From Actinomycetota bacterium (GTDB taxonomy: Bacteria; Actinomycetota; Acidimicrobiia; Acidimicrobiales; Poriferisodalaceae), in assembly GCA_014238065.1 (NCBI GenBank), contig JABABU010000023.1, forward strand, positions 1-55,814: a stretch of 55,814 bases of DNA, written 5' to 3'. A model generated the notes under the pieces. That model ran no database searches. It was not told where the DNA came from and saw only the letters and a program-made list of their open reading frames with translations. Positions 9,142-53,725 of this stretch are shown here, one piece after another (position 1 is the stretch's first letter; every line of letters starts with the position of its first letter). The position numbers were made by a program, and so were the translations under genes.

Positions 9142-9169
9142 GTCGACGGCCGGTGTGTCAGGCCTCGAC
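9142..9169. terminator. Hairpin between convergent genes
   Basis: The arms GTCGA-c-GGCC and GGCC-TCGAC pair with one bulged C around a 9-base loop. The hairpin lies directly between the two convergent stops, so it could serve both strands. There is no T-run, so it may be only a partial or Rho-assisted terminator. Confidence 0.4.
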
Positions 9170-33369: not shown

Positions 33370-34302
33370 CTACTCCGGTGGCGTAGCGCCCTTCTGGCTC
33401 GTGATGCGATGGTAGTGCTGCGGCTCGCGATGAACGGCGAAATTGAACGTCGTGGTCTTGTAACTGATGGTCGCATCGAGATCGCAGGCAGCAGTGATCA
33501 GCTCGTCTTCCTCGGTGGCGGCTCTGGCGACGACGTCGCCTGACGGAGCGATGATGCAGGTGCCACCGATCATCGGGACTCCTTCCTCGTTGCCGGCCTT
33601 CGCGACACCAACGACCCAGGTGCCGTTCTGGTAGGCCCCTGCCGACATCACGAGTTCGTTGTGGAACCAACTGTGGCGATCGTGATCGGGAGCCGGCGGG
33701 TTCTTGACCGGTGTGTTGTAGCCAATGGCGATGAGCTCGACACCCTGGAGGCCAAGCGAACGGTACGCCTCGGGCCACCGTCGGTCGTTGCAGATAAGTG
33801 AGCCGACGACACCGCCGAACGCACGGCTGACGGTGAAGCCCTCGTCGAGCGGCGGGACCTCGAAGTAACGCTTCTCGAGATGCTGGAACTCGCGCCACGG
33901 CTCGTGCTCGGCGTGACCTGGGAGGTGCACCTTGCGGTACTTGTGCAGAACCTCACCCGAAGGACCGACCCACAGCGAGGTGTTGTAGCGGTGACGGTCC
34001 GGCGTCAGCTCGGCATATCCGAGAACGAATCCGACACCCAGTCGCTTCGCCGCATCGAACAATCGCTTGGTCTCGGGACCAGGCATCTCGGTTTCGTAGA
34101 ACTCATCGAGTTCGGCCTCGTCCTCGATGAACCAACGCGGAAAGAAGGTGGTGAGCGCCAGTTCAGGGAACACAATGACATCGCAACCACGTCGGCCAGC
34201 CTGATCCATGAGAGCCAGGAGACGGTCGACCACCTCTGCCCTTGTGTGTTCACGTTGAATCGGTCCCAGTTGAGCTGCGCCAACGTTGACGATTCGGCTC
34301 AT
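33370..34302 (-). CDS. N-carbamoyl-D-amino-acid hydrolase
   Basis: 310-residue nitrilase-superfamily enzyme. It cleaves N-carbamoyl-D-amino acids to D-amino acid, CO2 and ammonia. The catalytic triad is Glu47 (FPELALTTFFPRW), Lys124 (KYRKVHLPGH) and Cys171 (LICNDRRWPE), beside the 47/127/172 of the Agrobacterium enzyme. FQHLEKRYFEVPPL and the C-terminal REPQHYHRI are also shared with that enzyme. It starts 14 bases downstream of the M20 carbamoylase stop and ends the reverse-strand run. Confidence 0.93.
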   Translation of the reverse strand: MSRIVNVGAAQLGPIQREHTRAEVVDRLLALMDQAGRRGCDVIVFPELALTTFFPRWFIEDEAELDEFYETEMPGPETKRLFDAAKRLGVGFVLGYAELTPDRHRYNTSLWVGPSGEVLHKYRKVHLPGHAEHEPWREFQHLEKRYFEVPPLDEGFTVSRAFGGVVGSLICNDRRWPEAYRSLGLQGVELIAIGYNTPVKNPPAPDHDRHSWFHNELVMSAGAYQNGTWVVGVAKAGNEEGVPMIGGTCIIAPSGDVVARAATEEDELITAACDLDATISYKTTTFNFAVHREPQHYHRITSQKGATPPE

Positions 34303-34316
34303 GCTTGCTCCAGAAT

Positions 34317-35555
34317 TCAGTTGGTTGCCAGTTGCACCAGGGTACGCAGAAGGACGTTCGCCCCGGCTCTCAGGTCGGCGAGGTCGGTCCTCTCTTCGGG
34401 ATTGTGACTGATGCCGTCGATCGACGGGACGAACACCATTCCCGTCGGTGCGACCCTCGCCATCATCTGCGCGTCGTGACCAGCACCCGATGGCATGCGC
34501 ACGACCGAATGACCAAGAGCCCTAGCGTTCGCCTCAACCAGTCCAACAACCGTCTGATCGAACACCACCGGCTCGAATCGGGCAAGCGTCCTTGTCGTGA
34601 CGTCGACGCCCTCCGAACTAGCCAACTTTTCGAGAAATCGGGCCAACCTGGCCTCGGCCTCCTGTAGGAGCTCATCGTCAGTGTTACGCAGATCAACGGT
34701 GATGGTTGCATTGGCTGCAATCACATTCACGAGATTCGGGTGAAGCGTCATCGCCCCACATGTGGCCACTTGATCGCCACTCATCTCATCAGCCAGGCCA
34801 CGTATGAAGGTCGACACAGCAGCTGCGGCATAGCCCGCGTCATGGCGCAGGCGCATCGGGGTCGTGCCGGCATGGTTCGATTGGCCGACGATCTCGATTT
34901 CGGTCCACGAGATGCCCTGGACCGATTCGACCGCGCCGATCGTGACACCGCCCTCCTCGAGTACAGGGCCCTGCTCGATGTGCAGTTCGACGAAGGCATG
35001 AGGCGACAACCCGGGAATCGGTGACGAACCGAGATAACCGATGGAGTCAAGCTCATCGCGCACCTTGGTGCCGTCGATTCCGACCGTGTCGAGCGCCTCT
35101 TCGAGCGGCATACCACCCACATAGACGAGGCTCCCCATCATGTCAGGGGGAAATCGCGCGCCCTCCTCGTTGGAGAAGAACCCGACCGCCATCGGGCGAT
35201 CGGTCGTGATGTCGGCATCCATGAGTGTCTCGATCACCTCGAGGCCGGCGAGGACGCCGAGACAGCCGTCGAAACGGCCGCCGGTCCTCACCGTGTCGAT
35301 ATGACTTCCCGTCATCACAGGGGGCCCTTCGGTGCGGCCCTGCCGGGTGGCGATGACATTGCCGATACCGTCGATCGTGATCTCGAGCCCCAGGTCGCGC
35401 ATCCACGTCACGACGAGATCGCGGCCAGCACCGTCGAGTTCGGTGAAGGCGAGACGGCTCGATCCGCCTGGTTCAAGTGGTCCGATCTCGGCGAGGGCGT
35501 CGAGGCGGGCAGCGAGCCGTTCCACGTCGACGAACAACTGCTCAGCGCCAGTCAC
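34317..35555 (-). CDS. M20-family N-carbamoyl-L-amino-acid hydrolase/amidase
   Basis: 412-residue dinuclear metallohydrolase of the HyuC/AllC/ureidopropionase group. The metal ligands are His85 (GSHIDTV), Asp96 (GGRFDG), Glu130/131 (NEEGARF), a His in HIEQGPVLE and a C-terminal His in SHNPEE. The dimerisation domain between about 210 and 325 has GQSNHAGTTPMRLR. Members hydrolyse N-carbamoyl-L-amino acids, beta-ureidopropionate or allantoate; the exact substrate is open. It overlaps the creatininase gene by four bases (ATGA). Confidence 0.9.
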   Translation of the reverse strand: MTGAEQLFVDVERLAARLDALAEIGPLEPGGSSRLAFTELDGAGRDLVVTWMRDLGLEITIDGIGNVIATRQGRTEGPPVMTGSHIDTVRTGGRFDGCLGVLAGLEVIETLMDADITTDRPMAVGFFSNEEGARFPPDMMGSLVYVGGMPLEEALDTVGIDGTKVRDELDSIGYLGSSPIPGLSPHAFVELHIEQGPVLEEGGVTIGAVESVQGISWTEIEIVGQSNHAGTTPMRLRHDAGYAAAAVSTFIRGLADEMSGDQVATCGAMTLHPNLVNVIAANATITVDLRNTDDELLQEAEARLARFLEKLASSEGVDVTTRTLARFEPVVFDQTVVGLVEANARALGHSVVRMPSGAGHDAQMMARVAPTGMVFVPSIDGISHNPEERTDLADLRAGANVLLRTLVQLATN

Positions 35556-36334
35556 GCGCCACCCTCCATCGGGTACTCGAACGCAGCCACCTCCCTGAGC
35601 GAGGCTCCGAGGTTCGCAACCGCAGCCGCGAACTGCCGTGCGCCGCGTTCGGCTGTGGCACCGGTCGGGTCACCGATGTGCCCATCGGGCCCGAAGTCGT
35701 TCGAGAGCCAGCCGAAGGGAACGGACCCACCGAACTTCACCTTCTCGTTGTCGACCAGTGCTGCCGGCACGTTCCTGACAGCGGCTTGCATGTCGACCAA
35801 CTCTGGCCGCAGATGCAGCATCATCGATGTTTCGCCGAGGCCGCCGTGGATACCCATGCCGTGCTCCTCCTCGGTGGATGGACCGCCCTGATCCGGTGGC
35901 ACAGACGGGTGCATCAGAAATGTCATCAGCCCGTGATGGAGTCGAACCTCGCGCAGCGCAACACTCAACAGACTGCTGTTACCGCCATGACCGTTGATGA
36001 ACACGATCTTCCTCGCAGGAAGCGGCGCAACAGACCGGGCCAAGTCGTCGATCATGGCGAGCAACGTCGTCGGGTTCATCCAGATCGACCCTGGAGACCA
36101 TGCGTGCTCGTTCGACTTCGTGTACGCGAACGGTTCGAGCATGAAGAGGTCGAGTTCCTCACCGAACTCGGTGATCACGGCTCTGCTGATGGCGTCGGCG
36201 ACCACGAGGTCGGTGTTGAACGGCAGGTGCGGGCCGTGTTGCTCGACAGCACCGAACGGTTGGATCAGGATCGATCTCTCGCTGACGACTTCATCAACCT
36301 GGGGTGCTCGAAGCTCGGCAAACCGACGTGTCAT
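35552..36334 (-). CDS. Creatininase-family amidohydrolase
   Basis: 260 residues from ATG 36334. The metal-binding motif is FGAVEQHGPHLPFNTD with Glu31, His33, His36 and Asp42, and NGHGGN and HGGLGETSMML follow in the right order. Creatininase opens the cyclic amide of creatinine; relatives act on other cyclic amides (formamide and mycofactocin precursors among them). In this run a ring-opening step on a hydantoin- or imidazolone-type compound is likely. It is translationally coupled to the M20 gene and nine bases after the phosphoribosyltransferase stop. Confidence 0.9.
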   Translation of the reverse strand: MTRRFAELRAPQVDEVVSERSILIQPFGAVEQHGPHLPFNTDLVVADAISRAVITEFGEELDLFMLEPFAYTKSNEHAWSPGSIWMNPTTLLAMIDDLARSVAPLPARKIVFINGHGGNSSLLSVALREVRLHHGLMTFLMHPSVPPDQGGPSTEEEHGMGIHGGLGETSMMLHLRPELVDMQAAVRNVPAALVDNEKVKFGGSVPFGWLSNDFGPDGHIGDPTGATAERGARQFAAAVANLGASLREVAAFEYPMEGGA

Positions 36335-36342
36335 CTGTGACC

Positions 36343-36849
36343 TCACGCGTCCTTTACGTCGAATCCTTCTGCGCCAGGCACGAGGCCCTGATCGGACCAT
36401 GGGAAGTTAATCCACTGGTCCGTGCGCTTCCACACATACTCGCACTTCACGAGCGAATGGCTCTTCTCGTAGATGACCGCCGACCTCACCTCACCGACGC
36501 GTTCGAGGCAATGGTTACGAACCACCTCGAGTGTCGCTCCGGTGTCGGCCACATCGTCGGCGATCAAGACCTTGGCTTCACTCATGTCAACGAAGTCGAC
36601 ATAGGGCGGCAACATCACCGGCACATCGAGTCGCTGGTCGACGCCGGTGTAGTACTCGACGTTCATGACGTAGATGTTCTTGACGCCCATCGCGTAGCCA
36701 AGGGATGCAGCGGCGAAGAGTCCACCTCGAGCGATGGCAAGGATCAGCTCCGGTTGAAAACCGTCGTCCACAACAATCTGCGCGAGTTCCCTCACTGCTG
36801 TGCCGTAGGTCGGCCAGTCGAGAATCTCGCGTTCACTCACATCCGACAC
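36343..36849 (-). CDS. Purine phosphoribosyltransferase-type enzyme
   Basis: 168-residue type I phosphoribosyltransferase. The PRPP loop is VLIADDVADTGATLE (94-108), with the two acidic residues followed by DTGAT, and an upstream LILAIARGGLFAAASL segment binds the diphosphate. Its size fits the guanine/xanthine/hypoxanthine salvage enzymes, which join a free purine base to PRPP. It sits beside 8-oxoguanine deaminase and the other purine-like hydrolases. The base specificity cannot be read from the sequence. Confidence 0.85.
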   Translation of the reverse strand: MSDVSEREILDWPTYGTAVRELAQIVVDDGFQPELILAIARGGLFAAASLGYAMGVKNIYVMNVEYYTGVDQRLDVPVMLPPYVDFVDMSEAKVLIADDVADTGATLEVVRNHCLERVGEVRSAVIYEKSHSLVKCEYVWKRTDQWINFPWSDQGLVPGAEGFDVKDA

Positions 36850-36933
36850 TGGTATTCGTTCCTCTCGCCCTTGAGTCTGGACGTTGAACTTAGAGCATCG
36901 CAGCGACCACGATGGCCACGGTGCGAGGGGGCG

Positions 36934-38310
36934 TCAAGCCTGCATCCTGGTGGCGACTTCACGGTGGGTGGCAAGTCGTTGCTCTGTCGCGCCCGAGACG
37001 AGCGAACCATCGGCCACCAGGATCTTGCCGGCCACGATCGTGGTATCGGCCCCGATCGGTCCGCACCGCATCCAGGCCTCGACCGGGTCGAGAAGCGCCC
37101 CAGCGAACTTGAATCCCTCGAGACGCCACATCGCGACATCACCGACAGCTCCGACCGACAACTCACCCAACTCTCCGGACCGACCGAGGCACGCCGCGCC
37201 ACCGCGGGTGGCCAACTCGAGGCTGACGCGAGCACTCTGAAGCGACCTCGTTCCGTCAAGGAAGCCTTTCAAACGACCAGACAGCATGGCGTTTCGGGCC
37301 TCGGTCCACATCGAAGCCGAGTCGGCCGATGCCGATCCGTCACACCCGAGGCCGACAGGAACGCCCGCCTCGCGGAGCTGGCGAACTGGGGCGACGCCCG
37401 TGCCGAGAATCATGTTCGAGCTCGGGCAATGAGCGACCCCGGTCCCCCATCGACCCAGCCTCTTCACCTCTTCGGGGTTCGGCTGAACACAGTGCGCGAT
37501 CCACGATCGGTCGCTGCCCCACCCGCAATGTTCGAAATGGTCGATGGGTCGACGGCCGAATTTCGCCATGCAGAAGTCGTTCTCGTCGACATCCTCCGCG
37601 AGGTGGGTGTGCAAACGCACGTCGAGCTTGTCCGCCAGCTCAGCGGTGCGTGTCAACAACTCTGGCGTCACGGAGAACGGCGAACATGGGGCGAGAGCGA
37701 TTCGCACCATGGCCCCGTGCGAGCGATCGTGATGCGACGCCACAGCAGCCTCTGACTCGGCCAGGATCGTGTCGTCGTCCTGCACCACATCATCGGGAGG
37801 GAGACCGCCATCCTTCTCCGACAGACTCATCGAACCGCGTGTGGGATGAAATCGCATCCCGAGTTCCTGAGCCGCACTGATCTCCGCGCTCAACAAATCG
37901 CCGGCACCGGCGGGGTGCACGTAGAGGTGATCGGACGATGTCGTGCAACCTGATTCGGCGAGCTCGGCCAGACCGATCCACGCCGAGATGTAGGCCGCTT
38001 CCTCATCGAGCCGCGCCCATTTGGGGTAGAGCGTCGTCAGCCAGTGAAACAGGTTGCCGTCGAGTGCCGGCGTGTAGGCCCGCGTCAGGTTCTGGTAGAT
38101 GTGATGGTGCGTATTGATGAGTCCTGGCGTCACGAGGCAGCCAGAGGCATCGATCGACACCGTCGCCTCCGGCTCAGAACCGCTGGCGCCGACGCCGTCG
38201 ATCAGCCCATCGGTGATCGCGACCCACCCGCCGGGGATCTCGGCGCGACGGTCGTCGACCGTTGCGACGAGCATCGCATCACGTATGAGCAGGTCGGCCG
38301 GTGACGACAT
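36934..38310 (-). CDS. 8-oxoguanine deaminase-like amidohydrolase
   Basis: 458 residues from ATG 38310; a Met nine residues earlier is less likely. It is a cytosolic metal amidohydrolase of the TRZ/ATZ group. The residues shared with characterised 8-oxoguanine deaminases are GLINTHHHIYQNLTRAY (metal His pair), CTTSSDHLYVHPAG, MRFHPTRGSMS and GLPPDDVVQDD, then a LHTHLAED metal His and CDGSASADS with the metal Asp. The reaction gives urate and ammonia from 8-oxoguanine. A hydroxyatrazine-type role is the alternative. Confidence 0.88.
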   Translation of the reverse strand: MSSPADLLIRDAMLVATVDDRRAEIPGGWVAITDGLIDGVGASGSEPEATVSIDASGCLVTPGLINTHHHIYQNLTRAYTPALDGNLFHWLTTLYPKWARLDEEAAYISAWIGLAELAESGCTTSSDHLYVHPAGAGDLLSAEISAAQELGMRFHPTRGSMSLSEKDGGLPPDDVVQDDDTILAESEAAVASHHDRSHGAMVRIALAPCSPFSVTPELLTRTAELADKLDVRLHTHLAEDVDENDFCMAKFGRRPIDHFEHCGWGSDRSWIAHCVQPNPEEVKRLGRWGTGVAHCPSSNMILGTGVAPVRQLREAGVPVGLGCDGSASADSASMWTEARNAMLSGRLKGFLDGTRSLQSARVSLELATRGGAACLGRSGELGELSVGAVGDVAMWRLEGFKFAGALLDPVEAWMRCGPIGADTTIVAGKILVADGSLVSGATEQRLATHREVATRMQA

Positions 38311-38413
38311 CGCGAAGACGGTACCGCCCAATTTCACTACCGGTCACAGGTACCGATCAATCTCGTTGTGGCTAGTTGAGGGTCCACCTGCGATCCGCAG
38401 TTACCGTAGGTCA

Positions 38414-38929
38414 ATGAGTATCTGCGTCGGGTGCGGCATCTGCTGCGATGGAACCATGTATCCGAACGTGACGCTGACTCCTGACGATCCTCAATCGGGT
38501 CTCTTGCAGGTCGGCGCCGCCATCACCAGCTCCGAGATCGGGTTGAGGCTCACTCAGCCTTGCGGTGCACTCCACGACCGACGCTGTGCGGTGTATGACG
38601 AACGTCCCAGCCTCTGTCGCAGCTATCGCTGCGACCTGCTGAAGGCCACCGAAGCCGGCAAAGTGTCAACCGGCGAAGCCAAACGGACGATCGCGGTAGC
38701 GATCAGACTCCGGGACGAGATCCGTCACCTCCTTCAGCAGGACACTGAGACAACGGATGAACGCTCCCTCGAGTCGCTGAGAGAGCGCCTACGCGAGGGT
38801 TTCGAGAGCGCGAACGACCAGGCCGCCTTCCAACGGCAGCACGCTGAGTTGTTCGCTCGACTCGCTGACATCCAGCATCATCTGCACTCGCACTTCGAGA
38901 AGACAGCACCCTCACCGGCATCGCCGTGA
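38414..38929 (+). CDS. YkgJ-type cysteine-cluster protein
   Basis: 171 residues. The N-terminal CVGCGICCDG (Cys 4, 7, 10, 11) and CGALHDRRCAVYDERPSLCR with a final RC pair form a CxxCxxCC ... C ... C ... C pattern typical of YkgJ/Fe-S or zinc cluster proteins. The C-terminal 80 residues are charged helices, possibly coiled coil. It is divergent from the 8-oxoguanine deaminase (104-base gap) and convergent with the LLM gene; the 220 bases after it hold no gene I can support. Function is unknown. Confidence 0.75.
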   Translation: MSICVGCGICCDGTMYPNVTLTPDDPQSGLLQVGAAITSSEIGLRLTQPCGALHDRRCAVYDERPSLCRSYRCDLLKATEAGKVSTGEAKRTIAVAIRLRDEIRHLLQQDTETTDERSLESLRERLREGFESANDQAAFQRQHAELFARLADIQHHLHSHFEKTAPSPASP

Positions 38930-39149
38930 CTGTCAGCCAGTCCCTGCGAAAGGTTGTTTCCGCGGGGAACCCATCGAAACTTCCCGGCACTGCTCGGTGA
39001 CCTTGCGGGTCCCCGAAGATGGCCGCTACCCCATTTCTTCAGACGAGCGACAGACACCACTCGTCATCAACGAGACCAACTTCGAGTCGGTATCAGGGAC
39101 CACAAGTCACTCCTTGCGACCCACCGACCTCGCTGCAAGGGCTGACGAT

Positions 39150-40175
39150 CTAGATCGACCAATCGGCAAACGCATCGATCATGACGCGAGGGTCGGGGCC
39201 GAGCGGATAAAGGATCGGCTGCGTGCAGCCGTCTGCGATGTAGCCAGCGACCTTCTCCCGGCATTCTGCGGCGGTGCCAGCGGCACAGATCATCTGCACG
39301 ATGTCGTCAGGGACGAACTTCGAAGCTGCGACGACCTGATCGTGGGTCGCAGGCCAGGTCAACACGGATCCGACGTCATCGAGCACTTTCTGCGGTACCC
39401 CAGAGGCCTTCATGATGTGAGGTTGCTGACCGAGGTACTGGGTCACCAGCATGCGGGCACCGTCGAGTGCAGCCTGGCGATCTTGGGGCGAGTCGCTGTC
39501 GGCGACGGAGGCAACGATGAGCTGTGGACGGGCGATGTCATCGACCGTTCGTCCTGACTTGGCTGCTCCGACGGCGAGCTGCTCCATCGCGCGTCGGTTG
39601 TAGTCGGGCGAAACGAGGTAGTTCAACACGACGCCGTCGCCGATCTCACCAGTGAGTTCCATCATCCTGGGCCCTGTCGCCCCGATGTAGATCGGCACGT
39701 CCTTGGGTCGGCGTTCTTGGTGGACGTAGTCCAGCTCGACACCGTCGAGCTGGACGAACTCGCCAGCGTAGGACACCGTCTCGTCGTTCAGCAGCGCACG
39801 AATACTCTCGACCATCTCGCGCATCTGCTTCAGCGGCCTGACTCTGCTGATCCCGACCTTCGATGCGAGCGGGTCCCACCATGCCCCGATGCCGAGAACC
39901 ACTCGTCCGGGAGCTAGATCGTCGAGGGTGGAGAATGTCGAAGCGAGGAGTGCCGCGTTGCGCGTCCAGCTAGCGACAACGCCCGATCCGATCTTGATCG
40001 TGTCGGTGACTGCGGCGAACGCCGCCATCGGGACAACCGCTTCTCTCACCAGGCGCGACTCGGCTTGATACACCGCGTCGAAACCCTTGGCCTCCGCGTA
40101 CTGCACGTATCCCATCGCGTCGCGGATTGGGTGAGCGTCCTGCAGGTACATCGCGACGGACTGTGTTGACCCCAT
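39150..40175 (-). CDS. LLM-class F420-dependent oxidoreductase
   Basis: 341-residue luciferase-like TIM barrel. It shows [20 protein letters not shown] (about 26-45), [19 protein letters not shown] and [18 protein letters not shown], then [20 protein letters not shown] (written [13 protein letters not shown] here). The fold matches methylenetetrahydromethanopterin-reductase relatives, which use F420. It is the last gene of the run that starts with the hydantoinase, six bases after the SsnA-like stop, so it should act on an intermediate of that pathway. The substrate is unknown. Confidence 0.87.
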
Positions 40176-40181
40176 CTTCGT

Positions 40182-41252
40182 TCAGCTCCCGAGTTCTTCG
40201 ATAGATCTGTGGAGACGGGTCGCCGCCTCCGCTGCCTTGGCACGTACCTCGTCGGCATCGACCTTGGTCGCAACGCCATCACTGAGGACTTGTTCGCCGT
40301 CAACGGTGATGTTCAGCGGCCGCACTCCCGTCGAGAACGCCAGGTGCCATGGCTCCATCGTGTCGTAGCTCCACTCGATTGTGTCGGATGTCGCTTCCGG
40401 GAAAAGACCTCGACCTGCTTCGAGCCAACCCCAGGCGCTGTCCGGAGTCGCCTCGACATCGGCCTCACGGTGGCGGAAGTAGGCGAACTGGAACTCGGCA
40501 AGCATGTTGGCACCGATGCCGTCGCTGCCGAGCACCGTTCGGTTTTGGCGTGCTGTTGGATTCGCATAACCGACACCGTTGTTCATGTTCGAGCGCGGGT
40601 TGTGAGCGATGGTTCCAGGAAGATCTCGATCCAGGTGAACGGCATGAACGATGAGCCAGTCATCGGTGGCGAGTGATTCCAGCCGTTGTCCAGCGGCGAC
40701 ATCGTCGACGCCTTCCGCAACGTGAATGTGCACTCCGCTCCCCAGGTCGGCGGCGAGTCCGGCAGCTGCTTCGAGAGTTTCGTCGGTACAGGTGAAGGCA
40801 GCATGGACCCCGACCCGGCCTCGACCGCCGCTGCGAATGAACCGCTCGTTTTCCGCGAGGCCCCGCAGCGCAGCTTCGTGGCCGTGGCGGTCGGTGACCC
40901 CGTACGCACAGTCGACTCGCACACCCACCTCGCGGCAAGCTTGTGCGATCACGTCGAGGCTGCCTTCGATAGCGTTTGGCGACTCGTGATGGTCGATGAT
41001 CGCCGTCGTGCCCGCCTCCAGTGCCTCGAGCGCACCGAGCTTCGCCGACCAGTAGATGGTGTCGAGGTCGAGCGCAACATCGAGTCGCCACCAGACGAGG
41101 TCGAGAATGTCCCGGAAGTTCTGTGGGGAGCGAGGTGGCGCCGGCATGCCCCTGGCCAAGGCCGAGTAGAGGTGGTGGTGAGCGCAGACAAGGCCGGGAG
41201 TGGTTGCGGTCAAGGCCGATTCAGCCCGTGACCTTGACGGGCTGGTGCACAT
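40182..41252 (-). CDS. ssnA: SsnA-like aminohydrolase, N-terminally short
   Basis: Metal-dependent amidohydrolase closely related to E. coli SsnA. The shared blocks are PGLVCAHHHLYSALARGM, LWWRLDVALD (read VWWRLDVALD), AIIDHHESPNAIEGSLDVI, VHIHVAEGVDDV, HNPRSNMNNGVGY and LGSDGIGANMLAEFQFAYFR. SsnA belongs to a hydrolase step in purine breakdown. E. coli SsnA has 442 residues and about 60 before PG-HNH; here only about 20 precede it, so the N-terminal beta sandwich is missing. The ATG at 41252 overlaps the xanthine dehydrogenase end by 32 bases; a TTG at 41213 is the alternative. Metal ligands are intact, so activity is possible. Confidence 0.85.
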   Translation of the reverse strand: MCTSPSRSRAESALTATTPGLVCAHHHLYSALARGMPAPPRSPQNFRDILDLVWWRLDVALDLDTIYWSAKLGALEALEAGTTAIIDHHESPNAIEGSLDVIAQACREVGVRVDCAYGVTDRHGHEAALRGLAENERFIRSGGRGRVGVHAAFTCTDETLEAAAGLAADLGSGVHIHVAEGVDDVAAGQRLESLATDDWLIVHAVHLDRDLPGTIAHNPRSNMNNGVGYANPTARQNRTVLGSDGIGANMLAEFQFAYFRHREADVEATPDSAWGWLEAGRGLFPEATSDTIEWSYDTMEPWHLAFSTGVRPLNITVDGEQVLSDGVATKVDADEVRAKAAEAATRLHRSIEELGS

Positions 41253-43797
41253 TCAGCGGAAGGTGCGTCCTCCATTGGCCGTCGACCTGGCGCATTGCTT
41301 CTGCGACTGCGCCGGCAGTCGGGACAAGACCGATCTCACCGACACCCTTTACACCGTACGGCGAGTTCGGCTGGGGGTCCTCGACCAGAATGACATCAAC
41401 GGGGGGCATGTCCTTTGCCCTGAGGATGCCGAGACTCCTCAGCGTCATGTTGGTGGGGCGGCCGAGTTCGTCCGTCGGAAACTCTTCGGTCAGGGCGTAT
41501 CCGAGGCCCATGTGCACGCTGCCCTCGATCTGACCCTCACACATGAGCGGATTCACGGCCTTACCAACGTCGTGCGCAGCGACAACCCTCTCGATCTCGC
41601 CTGTCGTCTCGTCGGCGATGACGAGCTGTGCTGCGTAGCCGAACGTCGAGTGGATACACGGGTTCTCGACATTGTCGTCGAGCTTGTTTGTCCAATCGAC
41701 CCGATACTCGCCCTCGTAGTCAACCCCCACTTCGCAGCCTCCGTCGGCAGCCACCTTGCAGGCATCGGCGACGGATCCAGCGGTCATCAGCGTGCCGCGG
41801 CTGCCCGTTGTCTGGCCTGCGCCGAGCTCGCGGCTGGTGTCGACGATGACATTCACCTTCGCCGGGTCGAGCCCGAGTTCTTGCACGGCCACCTGAAGAG
41901 CGACGGTGTGCACACCTTGACCCATCTCGGTCCAGCAGTGCCGAACGTCAACAGTGCCGTCCTCGTTGAAACGGACAACGGCCTTGGCGACCTCGAGAAA
42001 CCCGTTGCCGAGACCCGAGTTCTTGAGACCTAGACCGAGACCAACTGCTTTGCCGGACACTCGCGCAGCTTCGTATGGCTCCTTCACAGCCTCGAGACAC
42101 GAGCGAGCGCCTTTGCTGCCGTCGTCCATGATCTGGCCAGGGCCCCACACCGAGCCTGGTACGACAACATTTCGCGACCGAATCTCCCAGCCGCTGATAC
42201 CGACGGCGTCGGCGAGACGATCCATCACGCCTTCCATCGCGAACTGGGCCTGGTTGGCGCCGAAACCCCTGAACGCGCCGCAGACAGAGTTGTTGGTGCG
42301 GACCGCGACAGCCCTGACGTCGATGTTGGGAACTGCGTACGGTCCGCTCGCGTGCCCTGCGGCCCGTTCGAGCACCTTCATCCCGACCGATGCGTACGGG
42401 CCGCTATCACCGAGCATCCTGGCCCGAATGGCCGTGAGATTTCCCTCTGCGTCACACCCTGCCTCGTATTCGAGGTGGATCGGGTGACGCTTGGCGTGGA
42501 CGATGAGGCTTTCTTCCCGAGAGAACGTGCATTTCACGGGACGTTGGAGCAACCAGGCCGCTAGCGCGGTCTGTGCCTGGTTCGCCATGTCTTCTTTGCC
42601 ACCGAACGCGCCGCCGTTGCTGACGAGCGTGACCTCGATCTGCGAGGGATCGATACCCAGCACCTTGGCCGACAGGTTCCTGTCATCCCACACACCCTGG
42701 CCGCCGGAGTACATCAGCAATCGACGATCGTCGCCGATGGTGCAGAGTGTCGATTCCGGCTCGAGAAACGCTTGCTCCACCCGCTGCGTCTCGAATGTCT
42801 CTGTGACGACATGGGCGCTACCAGCGAGCGCGGCATCGACATCGCCTCGCGCATAGGTCGACACGCTCAAAATGTTGCCGTCCAGCCCCCAGACCGCATC
42901 TTCGGCGCTTTCAACAGCGTGCTTCGGGTCGGTGATCGGCCTCAGCACGTCATAGGTGACGTCGATGAGTTTGGCCGCAAGCCTCGCTGTAGGCCGATCT
43001 TCGGCAACGACGAAGGCAATGACATCGCCGAGATAGCTCGTGCGGCCACCGACGGGAATGAAGACAGGCCAGTCCTGGTGAATCAAACCCGTCTTCAGCT
43101 CACCCTGAACGTCTGCCGCGGTGAAGACTCGAACGACTCCTGGCACGGCCTCGGCAGCGCTGACGTCGATGGCTAGCACATCGGCTCTCGAATGATCGCT
43201 GAGCCTCACGGCTGCGTGCAACATGTCGTCGACGACCATGTCGTCGACGAAGTCCTTCACGCCGAGCGTGAGTTCCTCACCCTCATAACGAACAGCTCTC
43301 GATCCGACGCCGGTTGCGATCTCGACGTTGGCTTCAGTCGGCGTTCCCGTTGCAAGTGCCTCTACCGCATCGAGGATCTTGATGTAGCCGGTGCATCGAC
43401 AGAGGTGTCCCCCGAGATGTCGCGCCGCCTTGTCTCTGCTGAGTTCCGCTCCGTTCTTGTCGATGAGCGCCTTCGCCCGCATCACGATGCCGGGAGTGCA
43501 GAAGCCGCACTGAAGTGCGCCTGTCTGAGCGAATGTCGTGGCGAACCTTTGACGCTCTTCTGGGTCGAGACCCTCGAGCGTGGTGATCTCCTTGCCCGCT
43601 GCCTTCTCGAGCGACGTCTGACACGACACCATGGCCTTGCCATCCACGAGCACGACACAACAGCCACACTGGCCGCTCGGTGAGCAGCCATCCTTCGCAC
43701 TGAAAACCTCGAGTTCGTCTCTGAGGGCAGCAAGAAGATGCTCGTGATCTCCGACATCGACCGGAAATCCGTTGAGTGCGAAGGCACTCACTGCCAC
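41221..43797 (-). CDS. Xanthine dehydrogenase, XdhD/selenium-dependent type
   Basis: 858-residue molybdenum hydroxylase. Residues 1-150 hold two [2Fe-2S] domains: CSPSGQCGCC...C, and CGFCTPG with CRCTGY. Residues 160-858 are the molybdopterin part with GGAFGGKEDM, NSVCGAFRGFGANQ and the glutamate loop GVKGVGEIGLVP. The order fused Fe-S then molybdenum matches the XdhD/Se-dependent group. The FAD subunit that usually completes it (YgfM type) has no gene here. The enzyme should hydroxylate a purine such as hypoxanthine or xanthine, or run in reverse. It starts at GTG 43797, 41 bases after the PLP-enzyme stop. Confidence 0.9.
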   Translation of the reverse strand: MAVSAFALNGFPVDVGDHEHLLAALRDELEVFSAKDGCSPSGQCGCCVVLVDGKAMVSCQTSLEKAAGKEITTLEGLDPEERQRFATTFAQTGALQCGFCTPGIVMRAKALIDKNGAELSRDKAARHLGGHLCRCTGYIKILDAVEALATGTPTEANVEIATGVGSRAVRYEGEELTLGVKDFVDDMVVDDMLHAAVRLSDHSRADVLAIDVSAAEAVPGVVRVFTAADVQGELKTGLIHQDWPVFIPVGGRTSYLGDVIAFVVAEDRPTARLAAKLIDVTYDVLRPITDPKHAVESAEDAVWGLDGNILSVSTYARGDVDAALAGSAHVVTETFETQRVEQAFLEPESTLCTIGDDRRLLMYSGGQGVWDDRNLSAKVLGIDPSQIEVTLVSNGGAFGGKEDMANQAQTALAAWLLQRPVKCTFSREESLIVHAKRHPIHLEYEAGCDAEGNLTAIRARMLGDSGPYASVGMKVLERAAGHASGPYAVPNIDVRAVAVRTNNSVCGAFRGFGANQAQFAMEGVMDRLADAVGISGWEIRSRNVVVPGSVWGPGQIMDDGSKGARSCLEAVKEPYEAARVSGKAVGLGLGLKNSGLGNGFLEVAKAVVRFNEDGTVDVRHCWTEMGQGVHTVALQVAVQELGLDPAKVNVIVDTSRELGAGQTTGSRGTLMTAGSVADACKVAADGGCEVGVDYEGEYRVDWTNKLDDNVENPCIHSTFGYAAQLVIADETTGEIERVVAAHDVGKAVNPLMCEGQIEGSVHMGLGYALTEEFPTDELGRPTNMTLRSLGILRAKDMPPVDVILVEDPQPNSPYGVKGVGEIGLVPTAGAVAEAMRQVDGQWRTHLPLNVHQPVKVTG

Positions 43798-43837
43798 AAC
43801 CTCATGTCCGAATTTCTCCTACTGGGTGTTGGTCTGA

Positions 43838-45006
43838 TCATGAACGACGGTGACCGGTGAACAGAACTGCAACCTGTTCACCCGGGGCGATCTCATCCGC
43901 CATCAACATTAATCCAGCGAGACCGGCGGTCCCCGTTGCATCGACGTCGATCCCAGTGTGTCCACGACCAAGATCGAGGGCTTCTACCACGGTCATCTCA
44001 GGAATCACGAGCGGCTCACCACCACTGCTGGCCATCGCTGTCATGAGGGGGACCCAGTCGTAAGTCACGTCGTCCAGAATTCCGGAAGCCGCGCTTTGGC
44101 CGACTTCTTCCCACGGCCACATGAACTCCTCAGCCAGCGCGCCGGCATCGGATCGATCGACGCCTGCGGTGCCTGCTGCATCCCAAGCGCGCCTCAGAGG
44201 AGCAGCCGACTCCGTCTGGACGCCGTAAACGCGTGGCATGGCCGCGAGCGACCCAGCGGCGACGCCGTCAGCGAGACCTGCAGCGAGGCATGCACCCAGC
44301 GCTCCTCCGCCGACTTGGACGAAAACTCGATCGAGCCGTCCAGGACCTCCGCTCTGCTCCGAGAGCGCGTCGGCGAGTTCCCAGCCGATTGTCCTGGCCC
44401 CGTCGAAAGTTCTCGGCACATCCGATCCCTGCACGCTGAAACCAGTCGATCCCGCGGCGACTGCTTCTTTGAAACGCAGGTAGCAAGGGTCGCCGATCTC
44501 GCCCTCACGTCGCTCGCATCGTTCGATCGTCACGTCGAGCGCTTCGAGTTGATCTACCACTGCCTCATCGGCCCACACCGGGATGAAGACGCGAAGGGCG
44601 CGATCGGCAGCCTTGGCGACGACGGCGGCACCCAACGCGGCGTTGCCACACGAAGCAATCACCAGTTCGTCGGAGTCACACTGTGCTTCGTGTTCGTCGA
44701 TGGCGAGGTGCAGAGCGAGCCCGAACAGGTGGCGCGCCTTATGCGAGCCAGAGACGTTGTTGGTCTCGTCCTTGACCCACATGGTCGACGAGGCTTCAAG
44801 CCCGATCGCGCCCGCCAGTTGACGAAACGACGCCGTCGGCGTGACCACGAATCCGGCCCTGCCACTTGCTGCTTCGACCTGAGCGACAGATGCGTCCAGT
44901 CGTTCGACGAGATCGACGAAGCCCATGTCGTCGCGACCGGTCGCTACCCATCGAGTGTATGAATCGAGACGAGTCCGGTAGACGACGAACGGGTTCGCCT
45001 CGGTGG

Positions 45007-45010
<4 letters not shown>
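43838..45010 (-). CDS. Fold-type II PLP-dependent lyase
   Basis: 390-residue PLP enzyme of the threonine synthase/dehydratase superfamily. The PLP lysine is in VSGSHKARHLFG, the phosphate loop partner reads ASCGNAALGAAVV and the glycine loop QVGGGALG. It could be a 2,3-diaminopropionate ammonia-lyase-type enzyme, because YgeX plays that part in the comparable purine clusters; overall similarity to YgeX looks low to my eye. Alternatives are threonine- or serine-type dehydratase. It overlaps the next PLP gene by four bases (ATGA), so they may form one complex. Confidence 0.78.
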
Positions 45011-46518
<1,508 letters not shown>

Positions 46519-46552
46519 GGGGGCGTGGTCTCGATCTCTGTGGAGCGGTGCC

Positions 46553-48163
46553 TCAAGCTGCAGGAGAGAGGTCAGCTCTAAGAGTACGAAGTATTCGGTT
46601 CGCAGCGCTACGCCCCGGGTCAACAATGGATGGTGGCATCGTCATGTCCCCTGCATCGCACAGGAAAAGCCCGTCCACGGGCGTGGCATGATCGTCATGG
46701 CGGTGTCGGCGTGGCAGCGTTCCGAGCGCGGCCCTTGCCGCCAGACCACGCTGGCGGTACGGCTGGAGACCTTCGGCATCGACGGCGGCAGGTGTGATGA
46801 TTCGCCACCCACTGACGGCGGTCGCCAGGTCGTGACCAAAGGCGTCGGCGGCCAGTTCGATCCAGCGAGCCGGTTCTGCTGAACCTGGCCAACCGCCGCT
46901 GAGTTCGTACGGTGCGTGGAACAGCTCGATCGACAGGGTCGACGGGGACGAAACTGCCAACGAGGAGTCGACGCCGGCCACGACCGATATGACCATCGGG
47001 GGCCGCTGTGCGATCGCGCCGTGACGAAGCAGCCGAAAGCCGTTGCTGAGCGCCCTGGCCCCCGGGGTCACGACGATCCCAGATTGAACATCTTCTGGAA
47101 CTCCGCATCGCCCGAGTGAAGCGACGACATCGGCCCGTCTCACAGGAAACTCGGCGAGGACCGCGTCGATTCTTGCAACATGACCCTCTGAAACAGGCGT
47201 TGCCTCCGCCCTTCGGATCAACGACGACGCGACGGCCGGCGCAGGTTTCAGGCATTGAAGAATTGCTCGCCGTGGATCGCATGCAACCACGACACAGCCG
47301 GATTCGAATTCCTCGCCAGAGTCGACAACGACAGAGTGCACTCCTCGGGCATCGGCAACGATGCGAGACACCCGCGCCGAGGTGATGATCGACCCTCCAT
47401 TTTCTCGTACCACCGACGCCAGCGCCGCCGCGACAGGGACAGAACCGGACTTGGCCGTGTCGGTCAGTCCCGAATGCGAGAGGGCGTACCCGAGGGCACC
47501 CAGCCCCGAGCCAGGGAGGTCGGGAGTTCTGCCCGACGCGACAGGTCCACGCACGAGTGCAGCGCTTCGGAGCGGTTCAGTCTCGAAGAACGAGTGCAGA
47601 ACATCGGCTGCGCTGCGACGACTCCACCTTGCCAACGTTGCTGCCGCCGAGTTCCTACGATCGAGTAGCCGGCGGAGTGGAGGGGTTCGCGAATCGTCCT
47701 CTGACAACTCTTGAAGAAGTTCGATCACCGGCTTGGCTGCCGTCAGATACCGCTCGTAGTTGGCCGATTCATACCTGTGGGTGACTCTCAACGCATCGAG
47801 GGTTGCGCGTTCGCTCGCGAATCTGAGGAACGGATCGCCACCAAGCCACGACATCGCAAGCTCTGGGACGTCTCCGGTCGAGGCGACCAGGCCGTGGCGT
47901 TCCAGGTCGAGTTCGTGCGCCACGGTCGAGTTGAATCGAGACCGGGAGTCGAAAGGAACGAATTCGGCGCCGAGCGCCCTCACGCTCGTCGAAGTTCCGC
48001 CCAGATGCGCTCGCGCCTCGAGCACCTTTACCGGCAGGCCGGAGCTTGCGAGGTACGCGGCGCACGTGAGACCGGAGATTCCTCCGCCGATGACGATCGC
48101 AGGGCGCTGGTGGTCGGGTGGCTCGACGTGTTCTGATACGACTCTGGAAGGCACGTCCCACAC
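46553..48163 (-). CDS. CrtI-like FAD-dependent oxidoreductase
   Basis: 536-residue phytoene-dehydrogenase-like flavoprotein. The dinucleotide motif is VIGGGISGLTCAAYLAS (about 24-40), with the following LEARAHLGGTSTS. The C-terminal FAD motif is DGLFLCDAGDMTMPP. It is a clear paralogue of the gene at 49698-51305 (shared ARWSRRSAADVLHSFF region). Typical CrtI proteins desaturate carotenoids, but no carotenoid genes are nearby; here it lies between the hydantoinase and PLP genes. It may supply the redox step that YgfK carries in the related purine clusters; this is inference. Confidence 0.82.
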   Translation of the reverse strand: MWDVPSRVVSEHVEPPDHQRPAIVIGGGISGLTCAAYLASSGLPVKVLEARAHLGGTSTSVRALGAEFVPFDSRSRFNSTVAHELDLERHGLVASTGDVPELAMSWLGGDPFLRFASERATLDALRVTHRYESANYERYLTAAKPVIELLQELSEDDSRTPPLRRLLDRRNSAAATLARWSRRSAADVLHSFFETEPLRSAALVRGPVASGRTPDLPGSGLGALGYALSHSGLTDTAKSGSVPVAAALASVVRENGGSIITSARVSRIVADARGVHSVVVDSGEEFESGCVVVACDPRRAILQCLKPAPAVASSLIRRAEATPVSEGHVARIDAVLAEFPVRRADVVASLGRCGVPEDVQSGIVVTPGARALSNGFRLLRHGAIAQRPPMVISVVAGVDSSLAVSSPSTLSIELFHAPYELSGGWPGSAEPARWIELAADAFGHDLATAVSGWRIITPAAVDAEGLQPYRQRGLAARAALGTLPRRHRHDDHATPVDGLFLCDAGDMTMPPSIVDPGRSAANRILRTLRADLSPAA

Positions 48164-48243
48164 ATTACGACTATGTTACGAAATTGTCCGCGCGCTGTAA
48201 CAATGTCTGAAGCCACTCTTCTGACTGTGGAGAATCGGTTCCG

Positions 48244-49650
48244 TCAGATGAGCAGGTCGGACAGTCCTCGCTTCACGAACCGCCCTCGACCCGTCCTGCC
48301 GACGAACTTGCCGTTGTCGATCACCATCTGTCCCCGCGACATCACCGTTTCGACAGCGCCTGTCAGGTCGAAGCCTTGCCACGCCGAGATATCGGAGTTC
48401 ATATGGTGACTTTCGACGCCGAGTGTGTGTCGACGCGACGGGTCATAGATCACGACGTCGGCATCGCTCCCAGGCGCTATGACGCCCTTCTTCGGGTACA
48501 TCCCGAACAGCCGCGCCGGCGTCGTCGAGCACGTCTCGACCCATCGGGCGATGCTCAGATGTCCATCGACGACGCCCTGGTGGATCAGGTCCATCCTGTG
48601 CTCGATCGAGCCGAGGCCGTTCGGTGTCAGCCGGAAATCGTCAATACCGAGAAGCTTGTCCTTTTCACAGAACGGACAATGGTCGGTGGAGACGACGGAA
48701 AGATCGTCAGCCCTCAGCCCGGTCCACAGCGAACCAGAATGATGGTGTTCGCGAAGTGGAGGCGAACACACATAGGTCAACCCGTCGATACCTTCCTGCG
48801 TGAGATGATCCTCGATCGACAAGTAGAGGTACTGTGGGCACGTCTCGGCGAAGACGTTGCGGCCCCTGTCGCGGGCAGCCGCCACCTCGGCCAGAGCCTC
48901 GGTTGCCGACAGATGCACTATGTAGACCGGCGCCCCCGCCACCGCTGCCAACGAAATGGCGCGATGCGTGGCCTCACCTTCGAGCTCAGAGGGACGGGTC
49001 CTTCCATGCCAGACCGGGTCGGTGTTACCCCGCTCGACGGCTTGCTCGCGGAGCACATCGATGGCGATGCCGTTTTCGGCGTGCACCATCACCATCGCAC
49101 CGGTCTCAGCCGCCACCTGCATGGCCCGCAAGATCTGGCCGTCGTCGCTGTACACGTGGCCGGGGTAGGCCATGTAGTACTTGAAGCTCGTGATTCCCTC
49201 GTCGATGAGGGTCGGCATCTCCTTCAGCGCAGAGTCGGTCACGTCACCCATGCTCATGTGAAACGCGTAATCGATCACGCACTGGCCTTCGGCCTTCGCG
49301 AACTGTTCGTCGACCGATCGCCTGACGTCGTCACCGAGGGTTTGGTTGCAGAAGTCGACGACGGTCGTCGTGCCACCCCACGCCGCGGCCACCGTCCCCG
49401 TTTCGAACGAATCGGACACTGTGGCTTCCGGACTCATCTCGAGCGCCAGGTGCGTGTGGACGTCGACACCACCGGGGACCACGTACCGACCCGTCGCGTC
49501 GATGACCCTTTCGGCAGATTCAGCGGCCGAAGCCGCAAGGCTGCTACCTGGCGCGAGCAGGGCTTCGATGGTCTCACCTTCGACGACCACGTCAGCGGAG
49601 CTCACGCCGGTCGACGACACTACCGAACCGCCTCGAATCACGATGGACAC
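48244..49650 (-). CDS. D-hydantoinase / dihydropyrimidinase
   Basis: 468-residue cyclic amidohydrolase that opens hydantoins or dihydropyrimidines. The binuclear metal site is HTH in GVDVHTHLAL, the carboxylated Lys157 in SFKYYMAY, His in VHAENG and VHLSA, and Asp in STDHCPF. GTTTVVDF and NGLGSIEHRMDL are further family marks. It matches E. coli HyuA in role. It begins the reverse run and is divergent from the second CrtI-like gene with 47 bases between. A likely substrate is a hydantoin- or ureido-ring intermediate. Confidence 0.93.
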   Translation of the reverse strand: MSIVIRGGSVVSSTGVSSADVVVEGETIEALLAPGSSLAASAAESAERVIDATGRYVVPGGVDVHTHLALEMSPEATVSDSFETGTVAAAWGGTTTVVDFCNQTLGDDVRRSVDEQFAKAEGQCVIDYAFHMSMGDVTDSALKEMPTLIDEGITSFKYYMAYPGHVYSDDGQILRAMQVAAETGAMVMVHAENGIAIDVLREQAVERGNTDPVWHGRTRPSELEGEATHRAISLAAVAGAPVYIVHLSATEALAEVAAARDRGRNVFAETCPQYLYLSIEDHLTQEGIDGLTYVCSPPLREHHHSGSLWTGLRADDLSVVSTDHCPFCEKDKLLGIDDFRLTPNGLGSIEHRMDLIHQGVVDGHLSIARWVETCSTTPARLFGMYPKKGVIAPGSDADVVIYDPSRRHTLGVESHHMNSDISAWQGFDLTGAVETVMSRGQMVIDNGKFVGRTGRGRFVKRGLSDLLI

Positions 49651-49697
49651 CCGCTTCCCCTTTCGACCGCTTCATCATCTCGTACCCTCGTGATGAT

Positions 49698-51305
49698 GTG
49701 GCGGACAGTTCCAAGCCGGCGATCGGTGCTCGCCCGATGACCCGAGGCAACGACGCGCAAGTTATCGTGATCGGCGCAGGTCACAACGGCCTCATCTGCG
49801 CGGCGTACCTGGCACGGTCGGGTCACGATGTGCTGCTACTCGAGGCACGGGCCGGGGTCGGCGGTCTGGCGTCAACCGTCAGCGACCTCGGAGCCAGATT
49901 CAACATCTGCAACTGCGATCACAACATGATCAGGGCCAATCCGCTGCTCGACGAACTGGACCTGACAAGCTTCGGCCTCTCGTATCTCGAGCCAGAGCCG
50001 TCTTTCGTGAACATGCTCTGGAGCGGAACCGACCCGTGGCTGAGCTTCTACGACGTCGATCGCACCCTCGCTGGTTTGGCGAAGACGCGACCCGACCAGG
50101 TCGCGAACTATCGCAACTACCTCGAAGTTGCGCTACCTGTCGCAGAACTCCTCGTCGAAGTCGCCGCAGTCACCCCATCGGCACCTCAGCTCATCTCATC
50201 GGTGATGCGAAAGCGAGCCAACGGCGCATCGACGCTGCTGCGATGGAGCCGGTCATCAGCCATCGACGTGATGCGTAGCTTCTTCACCGACGACACCATG
50301 ATCATGCCGGGCATCAGCGTCGGTCCAACCGTCTGGGGTGCACCACCCAACGCGAAGGGAACCGGCCTGGCCGCGGCTGGTTACGCCATGCGTCACACCG
50401 TGCACACGGGCCGCCCGATCGGTGGCAGCGGAGCGCTCACTGACGCAGTATGCGATGCATACGTCGCCGCCGGCGGCATCGTTCAGTGCGGCAGCCGCGT
50501 CGAAACTCTGCTGGTCGAGAACACCAAAGCCGTCGGTGTCGTCCTCGATTCCGGCGAACAACTCCGAAGCGATCTGATCATCGCGGCATGCGACCCTCGT
50601 ATCGTTCTCGGCGAGTGGATCACCGGCGAGTCGAAGCGGGCGCGACCGACAACAGCCAAATGGCGAAACAAACCGGTGCTCGACGGCTACGAATCAAAGA
50701 TCGACGCGGTGGTCAGTGCACTACCGAGATATACCGCACTCGAACGGATCGCCGATCAGTTCGAGGGCGACGATCCGCTCGAACCGACCAGCGTCATCGC
50801 GCCATCCTTTGACGAAGTCATGGAAGCCCACGCATTGTTGGGCGTCGGTGAGGTCGCCGAACGGCCAACTCTTCTCGTCAACTTTCCCTCGGTGCTCGAC
50901 GAGTCGATGCGCACGGCCGAAGGACATCACATCATGAGCTTGGAGGCCTTGTTCACCCCCTATGCCGTGACCGGCGGATGGCCATCGAGCAATGAGCCGA
51001 TGCGCTGGATGACCAAGTGGGCCGAACTGGTTCAACCCGGGTTCCTCGACCACGTCATCAATTGGCGAGCCATGACCCCCGACCGGTACGAAAGCGAGTT
51101 CGAGATGCACCGCGGCCACACGCCGTCATATTCGGGATCACCGGTCGACGCGCTCTTCGGTCTCAACAAGGAGCTCACCCGGTACGACGCTCCGATCGAT
51201 GGACTGATGCTGACGGGGGCGGGCACATACCCCGGTGCCGGCGTGTGGGGGGCATCGGGCCGAAATGCAGCAGCAGCAGCAGTGAAGAAACTTCGGCGGC
51301 GTTGA
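49698..51305 (+). CDS. CrtI-like FAD-dependent oxidoreductase, second copy
   Basis: 535-residue flavoprotein from GTG 49698; an ATG at 49737 would shorten it by 13 residues and is nearly as good. The FAD motif is VIVIGAGHNGLICAAYLARS (about 22-41) and LEARAGVGGLAS follows. The C-terminal flavin loop is DGLMLTGAGTYPGAGVWGAS. LLRWSRSSAIDVMRSFF aligns with the paralogue at 46553. It leads the forward run of LLM proteins and ends one base before the GTG start of the next gene. Catalytic role is unknown; NAD(P) or F420 could be partners. Confidence 0.83.
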   Translation: MADSSKPAIGARPMTRGNDAQVIVIGAGHNGLICAAYLARSGHDVLLLEARAGVGGLASTVSDLGARFNICNCDHNMIRANPLLDELDLTSFGLSYLEPEPSFVNMLWSGTDPWLSFYDVDRTLAGLAKTRPDQVANYRNYLEVALPVAELLVEVAAVTPSAPQLISSVMRKRANGASTLLRWSRSSAIDVMRSFFTDDTMIMPGISVGPTVWGAPPNAKGTGLAAAGYAMRHTVHTGRPIGGSGALTDAVCDAYVAAGGIVQCGSRVETLLVENTKAVGVVLDSGEQLRSDLIIAACDPRIVLGEWITGESKRARPTTAKWRNKPVLDGYESKIDAVVSALPRYTALERIADQFEGDDPLEPTSVIAPSFDEVMEAHALLGVGEVAERPTLLVNFPSVLDESMRTAEGHHIMSLEALFTPYAVTGGWPSSNEPMRWMTKWAELVQPGFLDHVINWRAMTPDRYESEFEMHRGHTPSYSGSPVDALFGLNKELTRYDAPIDGLMLTGAGTYPGAGVWGASGRNAAAAAVKKLRRR

Positions 51306-51306
51306 C

Positions 51307-52275: not shown

Positions 52276-52284
52276 TTTGCGGCT

Positions 52285-53708: not shown

Positions 53709-53725
53709 GTCTTCAACGTAGCCTC

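Follow-up and report, generated by a model that had tools for sequence, protein, structure and literature searches.

Gene content of the block

The window analysed here is the whole 55,814-nucleotide contig JABABU010000023.1 of assembly GCA_014238065.1, one of the 56 contigs of a 3.94 Mb genome from an Actinomycetota bacterium of the class Acidimicrobiia (family Poriferisodalaceae). Its minus strand carries, from position 49650 down to 33370, a run of genes that probably serves the reductive breakdown of uric acid, in which a predicted F420-type enzyme of the luciferase-like monooxygenase (LLM) superfamily, designated LLM1, stands where related loci encode the reductase YgfK. The run opens with a D-hydantoinase in the putative role of HyuA (48244-49650), a CrtO/CrtI-like flavin adenine dinucleotide (FAD) protein recognised from its family hits (46553-48163), PALP539, a CysK-like fold-II enzyme dependent on pyridoxal phosphate (PLP) with an N-terminal extension (45007-46518; PF00291, 45.5 bits; the frame spans 45007-46626 and its first ATG lies at 46518), and PALP390, a threonine-synthase-like PLP enzyme and candidate replacement of YgeX (43838-45010). 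It proceeds with an XdhD-type molybdenum (Mo) hydroxylase of fused [2Fe-2S] and Mo parts (41221-43797), a short SsnA of 356 codons (40182-41252) and LLM1, a Mer-like protein (39150-40175; PF00296, 211.5 bits). Behind LLM1 follow an 8-oxoguanine deaminase (36934-38337; NF006055, 588.4 bits, cut-off 532), a purine-type phosphoribosyltransferase possibly used in salvage (36343-36849; PF00156, 66.3 bits), a creatininase-family protein (35552-36400; PF02633, 214.4 bits), an M20 carbamoylase in the putative role of YgeY (34317-35555; NF006769, 458 bits, cut-off 452) and a carbon-nitrogen (CN) hydrolase, a predicted N-carbamoyl-D-amino-acid hydrolase in the putative role of YgeW or UacY (33370-34302).

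SsnA and LLM1 are separated by 6 bases; with the first ATG taken as start, 32 bases are shared by XdhD and SsnA. Between LLM1 and the 8-oxoguanine deaminase lie 812 bases without a recognised gene (38338-39149); in several relatives this distance is only about 100-250 bases. Every gene class named in the original prediction, an earlier reading of the bare sequence, was recovered from the open reading frames and family scores. The creatininase-family gene and four more LLM genes (LLM2-5, within 51307-55641) are also present and had gone unnamed there.

In the pathway that Li et al. (2025, PMC12507026) reported from work with purified enzymes, the E. coli enzyme XdhD converts urate to yanthine by reduction. 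YgfK or the C. difficile UacX, together with SsnA, gives ureidomethyl-hydantoin, which HyuA opens; the ureido groups are taken off by YgeW or UacY and by YgeY, and YgeX yields pyruvate.

LLM1 and YgfK alternate behind SsnA

We compared the surroundings of SsnA in 100 loci (20 plus the best 80 of 508 SsnA relatives, duplicates included), keeping hits of at least 40% identity. Beside SsnA itself (100 loci), XdhD was kept in 84, LLM1 in 66, the CN hydrolase in 57, the M20 carbamoylase in 47, the 8-oxoguanine deaminase in 37, PALP539 in 28, PALP390 in 23, the phosphoribosyltransferase in 10, the hydantoinase in 5 and LLM2 in 4, and the commonest order was M20, CN hydrolase, XdhD, SsnA, LLM1. The original prediction had proposed searching related genomes for a conserved order; because much of the set does recur around SsnA there, the grouping is more than chance. 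The SsnA matches in named records among the best 80 of 508 came mostly from Acidimicrobiia or Actinomycetota assemblies. A few records in that same set bear the name Acidobacteria, Limnocylindrales or Bifidobacterium breve in their titles; the three loci with the last title (L071, L079, L094) hold Acidimicrobiia-like clusters, and their titles look wrong.

With a further 60 loci, mostly from different genera, the number scored came to 161; removal of 14 near-identical ones left 147 non-redundant SsnA loci. With thresholds of at least 55% identity for LLM1 and at least 33% for YgfK, 82 loci held only LLM1, 44 only YgfK and 21 neither, and none held both. A hit to the 8-oxoguanine deaminase at 40% identity or better was present in 48 of the 147. 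Counting as the next gene one on the same strand within 900 bases, we found LLM1 directly behind SsnA in 64 loci, YgfK in 41, YgeX in 7 and another gene in 33, the stretch ending first in 2; the median gap from SsnA was 44 bases to LLM1 and 30 bases to YgfK. On a quick IQ-TREE phylogeny of SsnA from the 147 loci and E. coli, the 126 loci labelled LLM1 or YgfK require at least four changes between the two labels. The SsnA of the window falls within a starred group of 11 rows; 10 of these carry LLM1, and the remaining one has neither reductase.

The 41 YgfK genes in this slot comprise 17 long forms (1116-1214 codons from the start of the hit), 18 short forms (564-612 codons), 4 that run off the stretch and 2 that could not be measured. 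One long form scores 878 on the YgfK model (cut-off 835.3). YgfK frames of 604-788 codons in the genome set described below match just about the first 415 model positions, so that the short forms probably lack the NAD(P)H part. The short form (564-612 codons) stands behind SsnA in L057, L076, L117 and others.

The alternation was also followed across 61 genomes, namely the source genome and 60 relatives, with SsnA counted at 63% identity or more. These searches score only a portion of each genome's first-look candidates, which makes absences strong but not absolute, and the Fisher values ignore kinship. SsnA was present in 39 of the 61 genomes, once as a piece at a contig edge and once in two pieces; the copies in 38 of the 60 relatives are 63-76% identical, and in the class as a whole 177 of 395 genomes have SsnA (E 1e-80). 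Among the 39 SsnA genomes, 30 carry LLM1, 7 carry YgfK, none carries both and 2 carry neither. LLM1 occurs in 31 of the 61, one of them without SsnA. YgfK, counted by its N-terminal part, is confined to 7 genomes that all have SsnA and appears in none of the 22 that lack it; two genomes that match YgfK only at model positions 433-936 were left out of this count. YgfK was not found in the source genome (E 1e-60; 10 of 51 candidates scored). The hydantoinase was detected in 30 of the 39 SsnA genomes versus 5 of the 22 others, and the selenium protein SelD in 36 of the 39 versus 12 of the 22.

Close relatives illustrate the exchange. In genus g3, genome G010 encodes XdhD, SsnA, an LLM1 91% identical to that of the window, and 8-oxoguanine deaminase in a row; in G002 of the same genus, only a 38-codon stump matching LLM1 residues 5-42 lies between SsnA and the deaminase, and YgfK is found on a separate 5-kb contig. 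This case is suggestive only, as the G002 assembly has 960 contigs and 4% contamination. In G008, which belongs to the same family as the source genome, YgfK lies amid XdhD, the CN hydrolase, M20, the phosphoribosyltransferase, 8-oxoguanine deaminase, PALP390 and PALP539, which is the gene set of the window with YgfK in the place of LLM1. The exchange of the two in relatives gives strong support to the view, already put forward in the original prediction, that an LLM enzyme replaces YgfK, and makes LLM1 the likely candidate for a yanthine reductase in its stead.

Predicted functions of the individual enzymes

LLM1 is likely an F420-type enzyme, as judged from its nearest relatives. By sequence, its closest solved relatives are the Mer proteins 1z69, 8qpl and 1f07, at 23-30% identity, and it scores below the cut-off of the Mer family NF002619 (179 against 276). 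When its predicted structure was compared with solved ones, the top 15 rows were all F420 enzymes (Mer 34.2-35.5, others 28.7-29.5), and the first flavin enzyme scored 27.8, in a tie with the last F420 rows. The source genome contains cofH.

The SsnA family is the top-scoring one for 40182-41252, and the protein is 33% identical to E. coli SsnA over 407 columns and keeps its motifs, the first 50 or so residues being absent. Its scores lie below both family cut-offs (PRK07203, 252.3 against 444; TIGR03314, 237.2 against 455.5). We take the InterPro family IPR017700 to rest on the TIGR03314 model. Because the score of 237 is below 455.5, this SsnA clade likely falls outside the network of Li et al., which used IPR017700 (PMC12507026). 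The Mo hydroxylase is just under the cut-off of TIGR03311, the selenium-dependent xanthine dehydrogenase family (820.3 against 830.45), lies nearer to this family than to TIGR03313, the family of E. coli XdhD, and is 25% identical to the latter over 944 columns.

The hydantoinase exceeds its TIGR02033 cut-off (523 against 393.25 bits), shares 40% identity with E. coli HyuA and matches the D-hydantoinase chain 4kqn at 5.1e-129. The nearest solved chain to the CN hydrolase is the N-carbamoyl-D-amino-acid hydrolase 8i99 (6.9e-114), with which a Glu, a Lys and a Cys align, presumably the catalytic residues. A D-carbamoylase acting after a D-hydantoinase is consistent with the D configuration that published work proposes for the intermediates (PMC12507026, PMC12990295). 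The M20 protein matches N-carbamoyl-beta-alanine amidohydrolase (1.8e-88), and TIGR03526, the YgeY family on which E. coli YgeY itself scores 721.6, is not among its 25 families. The phosphoribosyltransferase scores weakly as a xanthine phosphoribosyltransferase (52.8 against 138).

PALP539 matches cysteine synthase (1.8e-14), and its homologs share 55-64% identity in most of 24 aligned relatives and 46-47% in the rest. The 2,3-diaminopropionate ammonia-lyase family is not among the 16 family hits of PALP390, and YgeX was not found in the source genome (NF006058, E 1e-50). The profile searches that had been proposed as a check gave a divided answer: the SsnA family came out on top and TIGR03311 was nearly reached, but SsnA stays below its cut-offs and the PLP genes are not YgeX.

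Three further positions show a similar alternation. PALP390 occurs in 26 of the 147 loci and YgeX in 19, never together; in one locus (L048), YgeX (334 against a cut-off of 276) lies directly behind LLM1. Across the 61 genomes, YgeX is found in 13, all with SsnA, and PALP390 in 29, of which 26 have SsnA; the 39 SsnA genomes include 11 with YgeX only, 24 with PALP390 only and 2 with neither. This alternation, the sole ground for it, suggests a YgeX-like role for PALP390. Of the two PLP genes that the original prediction had likened to this part of the locus, neither is YgeX by family models, and PALP390 retains the link through its alternation. The CN hydrolase and YgeW occur in 79 and 8 of the 147 loci and the M20 carbamoylase and YgeY in 60 and 7, in both cases never together. 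YgeW was not found in the window, as the original prediction had it, and in relatives the D-carbamoylase alternates with it.

The source genome also encodes SelD (365.8 against a cut-off of 125), YqeB (302.3 against 220) and YqeC (162.3 against 73). Its selD gene (G000:C53:88268-89185) holds one in-frame TGA, as do many relatives, and SelD is therefore probably itself a selenoprotein. In 170 SsnA loci, a transporter protein of the BMP/PnrA type was found in 45, an XdhB-like FAD subunit in 66 and YqeB in 11.

Proposed pathway and comparison with known clusters

We consider it probable, at roughly 0.7, that the block breaks down uric acid reductively and that an F420-type LLM reductase takes over the ring-reducing step of YgfK. 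The proposed likeness to the yge/ygf locus is supported in this respect, with urate the substrate that the gene content points to. Each reaction is assigned from homology and from the exchange described above. The 8-oxoguanine deaminase and xanthine dehydrogenases (XDH) would supply urate, which the XdhD-type enzyme would reduce to yanthine; LLM1 would then reduce yanthine with F420H2, and the short SsnA would open the pyrimidine ring of the product to give ureidomethyl-hydantoin. The D-hydantoinase may convert this to 2,3-diureidopropionate. That compound would lose its 2-ureido group to the N-carbamoyl-D-amino-acid hydrolase and its 3-ureido group to the M20 carbamoylase, leaving 2,3-diaminopropionate for PALP390 to split into pyruvate and ammonia. 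The occurrence of a purine-type BMP transporter near SsnA in relatives is in keeping with this scheme. PALP539 is conserved with the cluster and may be a partner of PALP390 or serve separately.

Several observations weigh against this assignment. Neither reductase is seen in 21 loci, some of which end at a contig edge. The hydantoinase lies near SsnA in only 12 of the 147 loci and, at E 1e-100, was not found in 9 of the 39 SsnA genomes. SelD is missing from 3 of those 39, a single-contig genome included, and G038 has the cluster without it; the selenium part is therefore not obligatory. The Mo hydroxylase has no FAD domain, and no FAD partner was found in the block; the residue aligned with Glu606 of XdhD, in a gappy stretch, is D here and D or E in the XdhD of seven relatives, and of the two canonical XDH sequences aligned one also has E in this column. 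YgeX and PALP390 occur together in 2 of the 39 SsnA genomes. PALP539 accompanies YgeX in 4 of the 147 loci, so its task may lie outside the last lyase reaction. A BMP or urate transporter was not found in the window or in 0.8 Mb of the source genome.

Like the E. coli cluster (ygeW, ygeX, ygeY, hyuA, ygfK, ssnA, ygfM, xdhD), the block has an XdhD-type enzyme, SsnA and a D-hydantoinase, and would follow the same logic, in which reduction is joined to the opening of two rings, the removal of two ureido groups and a PLP lyase. It differs in that YgfK and YgeX were not found in the genome, nor YgeW, YgeY or YgfM in the window; in their stead the block has LLM1, the D-carbamoylase, the M20 carbamoylase and PALP390, and its SsnA is short. 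As YgfK, YgeX, YgeW and YgeY were looked for and not found, we do not count the block as a member of the E. coli type. With the C. difficile variant (UacX, UacY, XdhD without YgfM) it shares an XdhD without FAD subunit and a predicted hydrolytic removal of the 2-ureido group, but the PydA-like UacX and the D-aminoacylase UacY are not in the block, UacY being judged by the block's family hits; PF01180 is not among its Pfam hits. It resembles the Chloroflexota SsnA clusters that Li et al. describe as lacking YgfK and UacX and holding a putative F420-dependent LLM (PMC12507026), in that an F420-type LLM lies beside SsnA in place of YgfK or UacX. It differs from them in its phylum, in an SsnA below the TIGR03314 cut-off and in the nature of the evidence, which is co-occurrence there and exchange in one slot here. 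From Mer, finally, LLM1 is set apart by its low identity, its score below the family cut-off and its other gene company. The F420 idea had already been put forward by Li et al. for Chloroflexota, which limits what is new here; no earlier account of the slot exchange, of the Acidimicrobiia clade or of the other swaps was found in the literature searched.

We lean, by a small degree, towards a broader picture in which the pathway is modular and its ring-reducing slot has been swapped among the long YgfK (with NADPH), the short YgfK that lacks the NADPH part (with ferredoxin or the like) and the Mer-like LLM (with F420H2), while a D-carbamoylase takes the place of YgeW and a threonine-synthase-like enzyme that of YgeX. 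The pathway would then be the main urate route of the Acidimicrobiia, a large environmental lineage, and no speciality of the gut. If the main assignment is right, F420H2 reduces a purine ring, to our knowledge a new reaction for the LLM superfamily. Moreover, a pathway described in print for anaerobes and gut bacteria would be spread through environmental Actinomycetota. Ilumatobacter, Microthrix and the marine Acidimicrobiia live aerobically. With regard to the aerobic version suggested in the original prediction, haem-copper oxidase genes were looked for: a search with E. coli cyoB found nothing in 855,814 bases of the source genome or in the 170 loci of relatives, and one with cyoB, cyoA, cyoC and cyoE found nothing in 1,180,609 bases (about 30%) of the source genome, too small a share to weigh for or against that version. 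The finding bears on the question raised in a commentary by Percudani (PMC12990295), whether the urate pathway has ancient roots or arose recently as an adaptation to the gut. Owing to the exchange, a single purified enzyme would suffice for a direct test of the F420-dependent yanthine reductase that Li et al. suggested.

Alternative explanations

As the XdhD-type enzyme lacks both FAD domain and FAD partner, it needs an electron donor, and LLM1 might deliver electrons to it (for example by F420-linked reduction of XdhD) or carry out a side reaction while another enzyme reduces the ring; LLM2-5 and the CrtO-like flavoproteins lie close by. We regard this as unlikely, given that LLM1 alternates with YgfK and not with the FAD subunit, adjoins SsnA, and that the other flavoproteins are not conserved in relatives; Li et al. 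also report having had to combine SsnA with YgfK for activity (PMC12507026). Comparably improbable is that the block degrades a different nitrogen ring, such as a pyrimidine, a substituted hydantoin or creatinine. The hydantoinase, M20 and D-carbamoylase families are broad enough for this, the substrates of Mer-like LLM enzymes vary, and a creatininase-family gene lies in the run; set against it, SsnA, the XdhD-type enzyme, YgfK or LLM1, YgeX or PALP390 and 8-oxoguanine deaminase recur together and the creatininase gene does not. Creatinine breakdown was rejected on this last ground, the gene not being conserved around SsnA.

The pattern of YgfK and LLM1 could in principle reflect lineage history or incomplete assembly with no functional exchange behind it, which we think improbable to a still greater degree. 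Kinship links the loci and does not enter the Fisher values, many genomes are drafts, and about four changes are all that the tree demands; yet the two genes take the same slot at similar spacing, only 2 of the 39 SsnA genomes have neither, and the exchanges seen inside one genus and inside one family leave the other genes of the cluster in place. An ordinary oxidation of xanthine to urate followed by the oxidative allantoin route has very little in its favour, namely the name xanthine dehydrogenase of TIGR03311 and an M20 protein that scores in the allantoate amidohydrolase family, since that route has no use for SsnA and YgfK or LLM1, a separate XDH with a FAD subunit lies nearby in relatives, and uricase (PF01014) and OHCU decarboxylase (PF09349) were found in none of the 61 genomes by a search that detected them in control genomes and left FAD- and PuuD-type urate oxidases aside.

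Neighbouring genes and a second cluster

On the plus strand, a divergent run (49698-55641) begins 47 bases from the hydantoinase gene with a CrtO-like FAD protein recognised from its family hits (49698-51305), and holds four LLM genes and an unrecognised 204-codon protein (53115-53729). Both CrtO-like proteins, the creatininase-family protein and LLM3-5 gave no kept hit in the fetched flanks of the 100 loci, and the CrtI-like proteins and LLM2-5 were rejected as parts of the pathway, the LLM2-like gene being limited to the four loci mentioned above; the product of 49698-51305 is probably not part of it. The original prediction had counted CrtI-like flavoproteins and several LLM enzymes among the replacements: the flavoproteins drop out, and of the LLM enzymes only that at 39150-40175 is conserved. 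At the far end of the window, a tRNA match on the minus strand (1-49) is truncated by the contig end.

The source genome holds a second cluster of the selenium type (L219, G000:C22:80001-100000, positions 687-9317). It encodes YqeC, YqeB, an XdhC-like protein, a 442-codon SsnA-like amidohydrolase, a fused Mo hydroxylase of 976 codons nearest to TIGR03313, a TIGR03312-like FAD subunit and a serine/threonine dehydratase.

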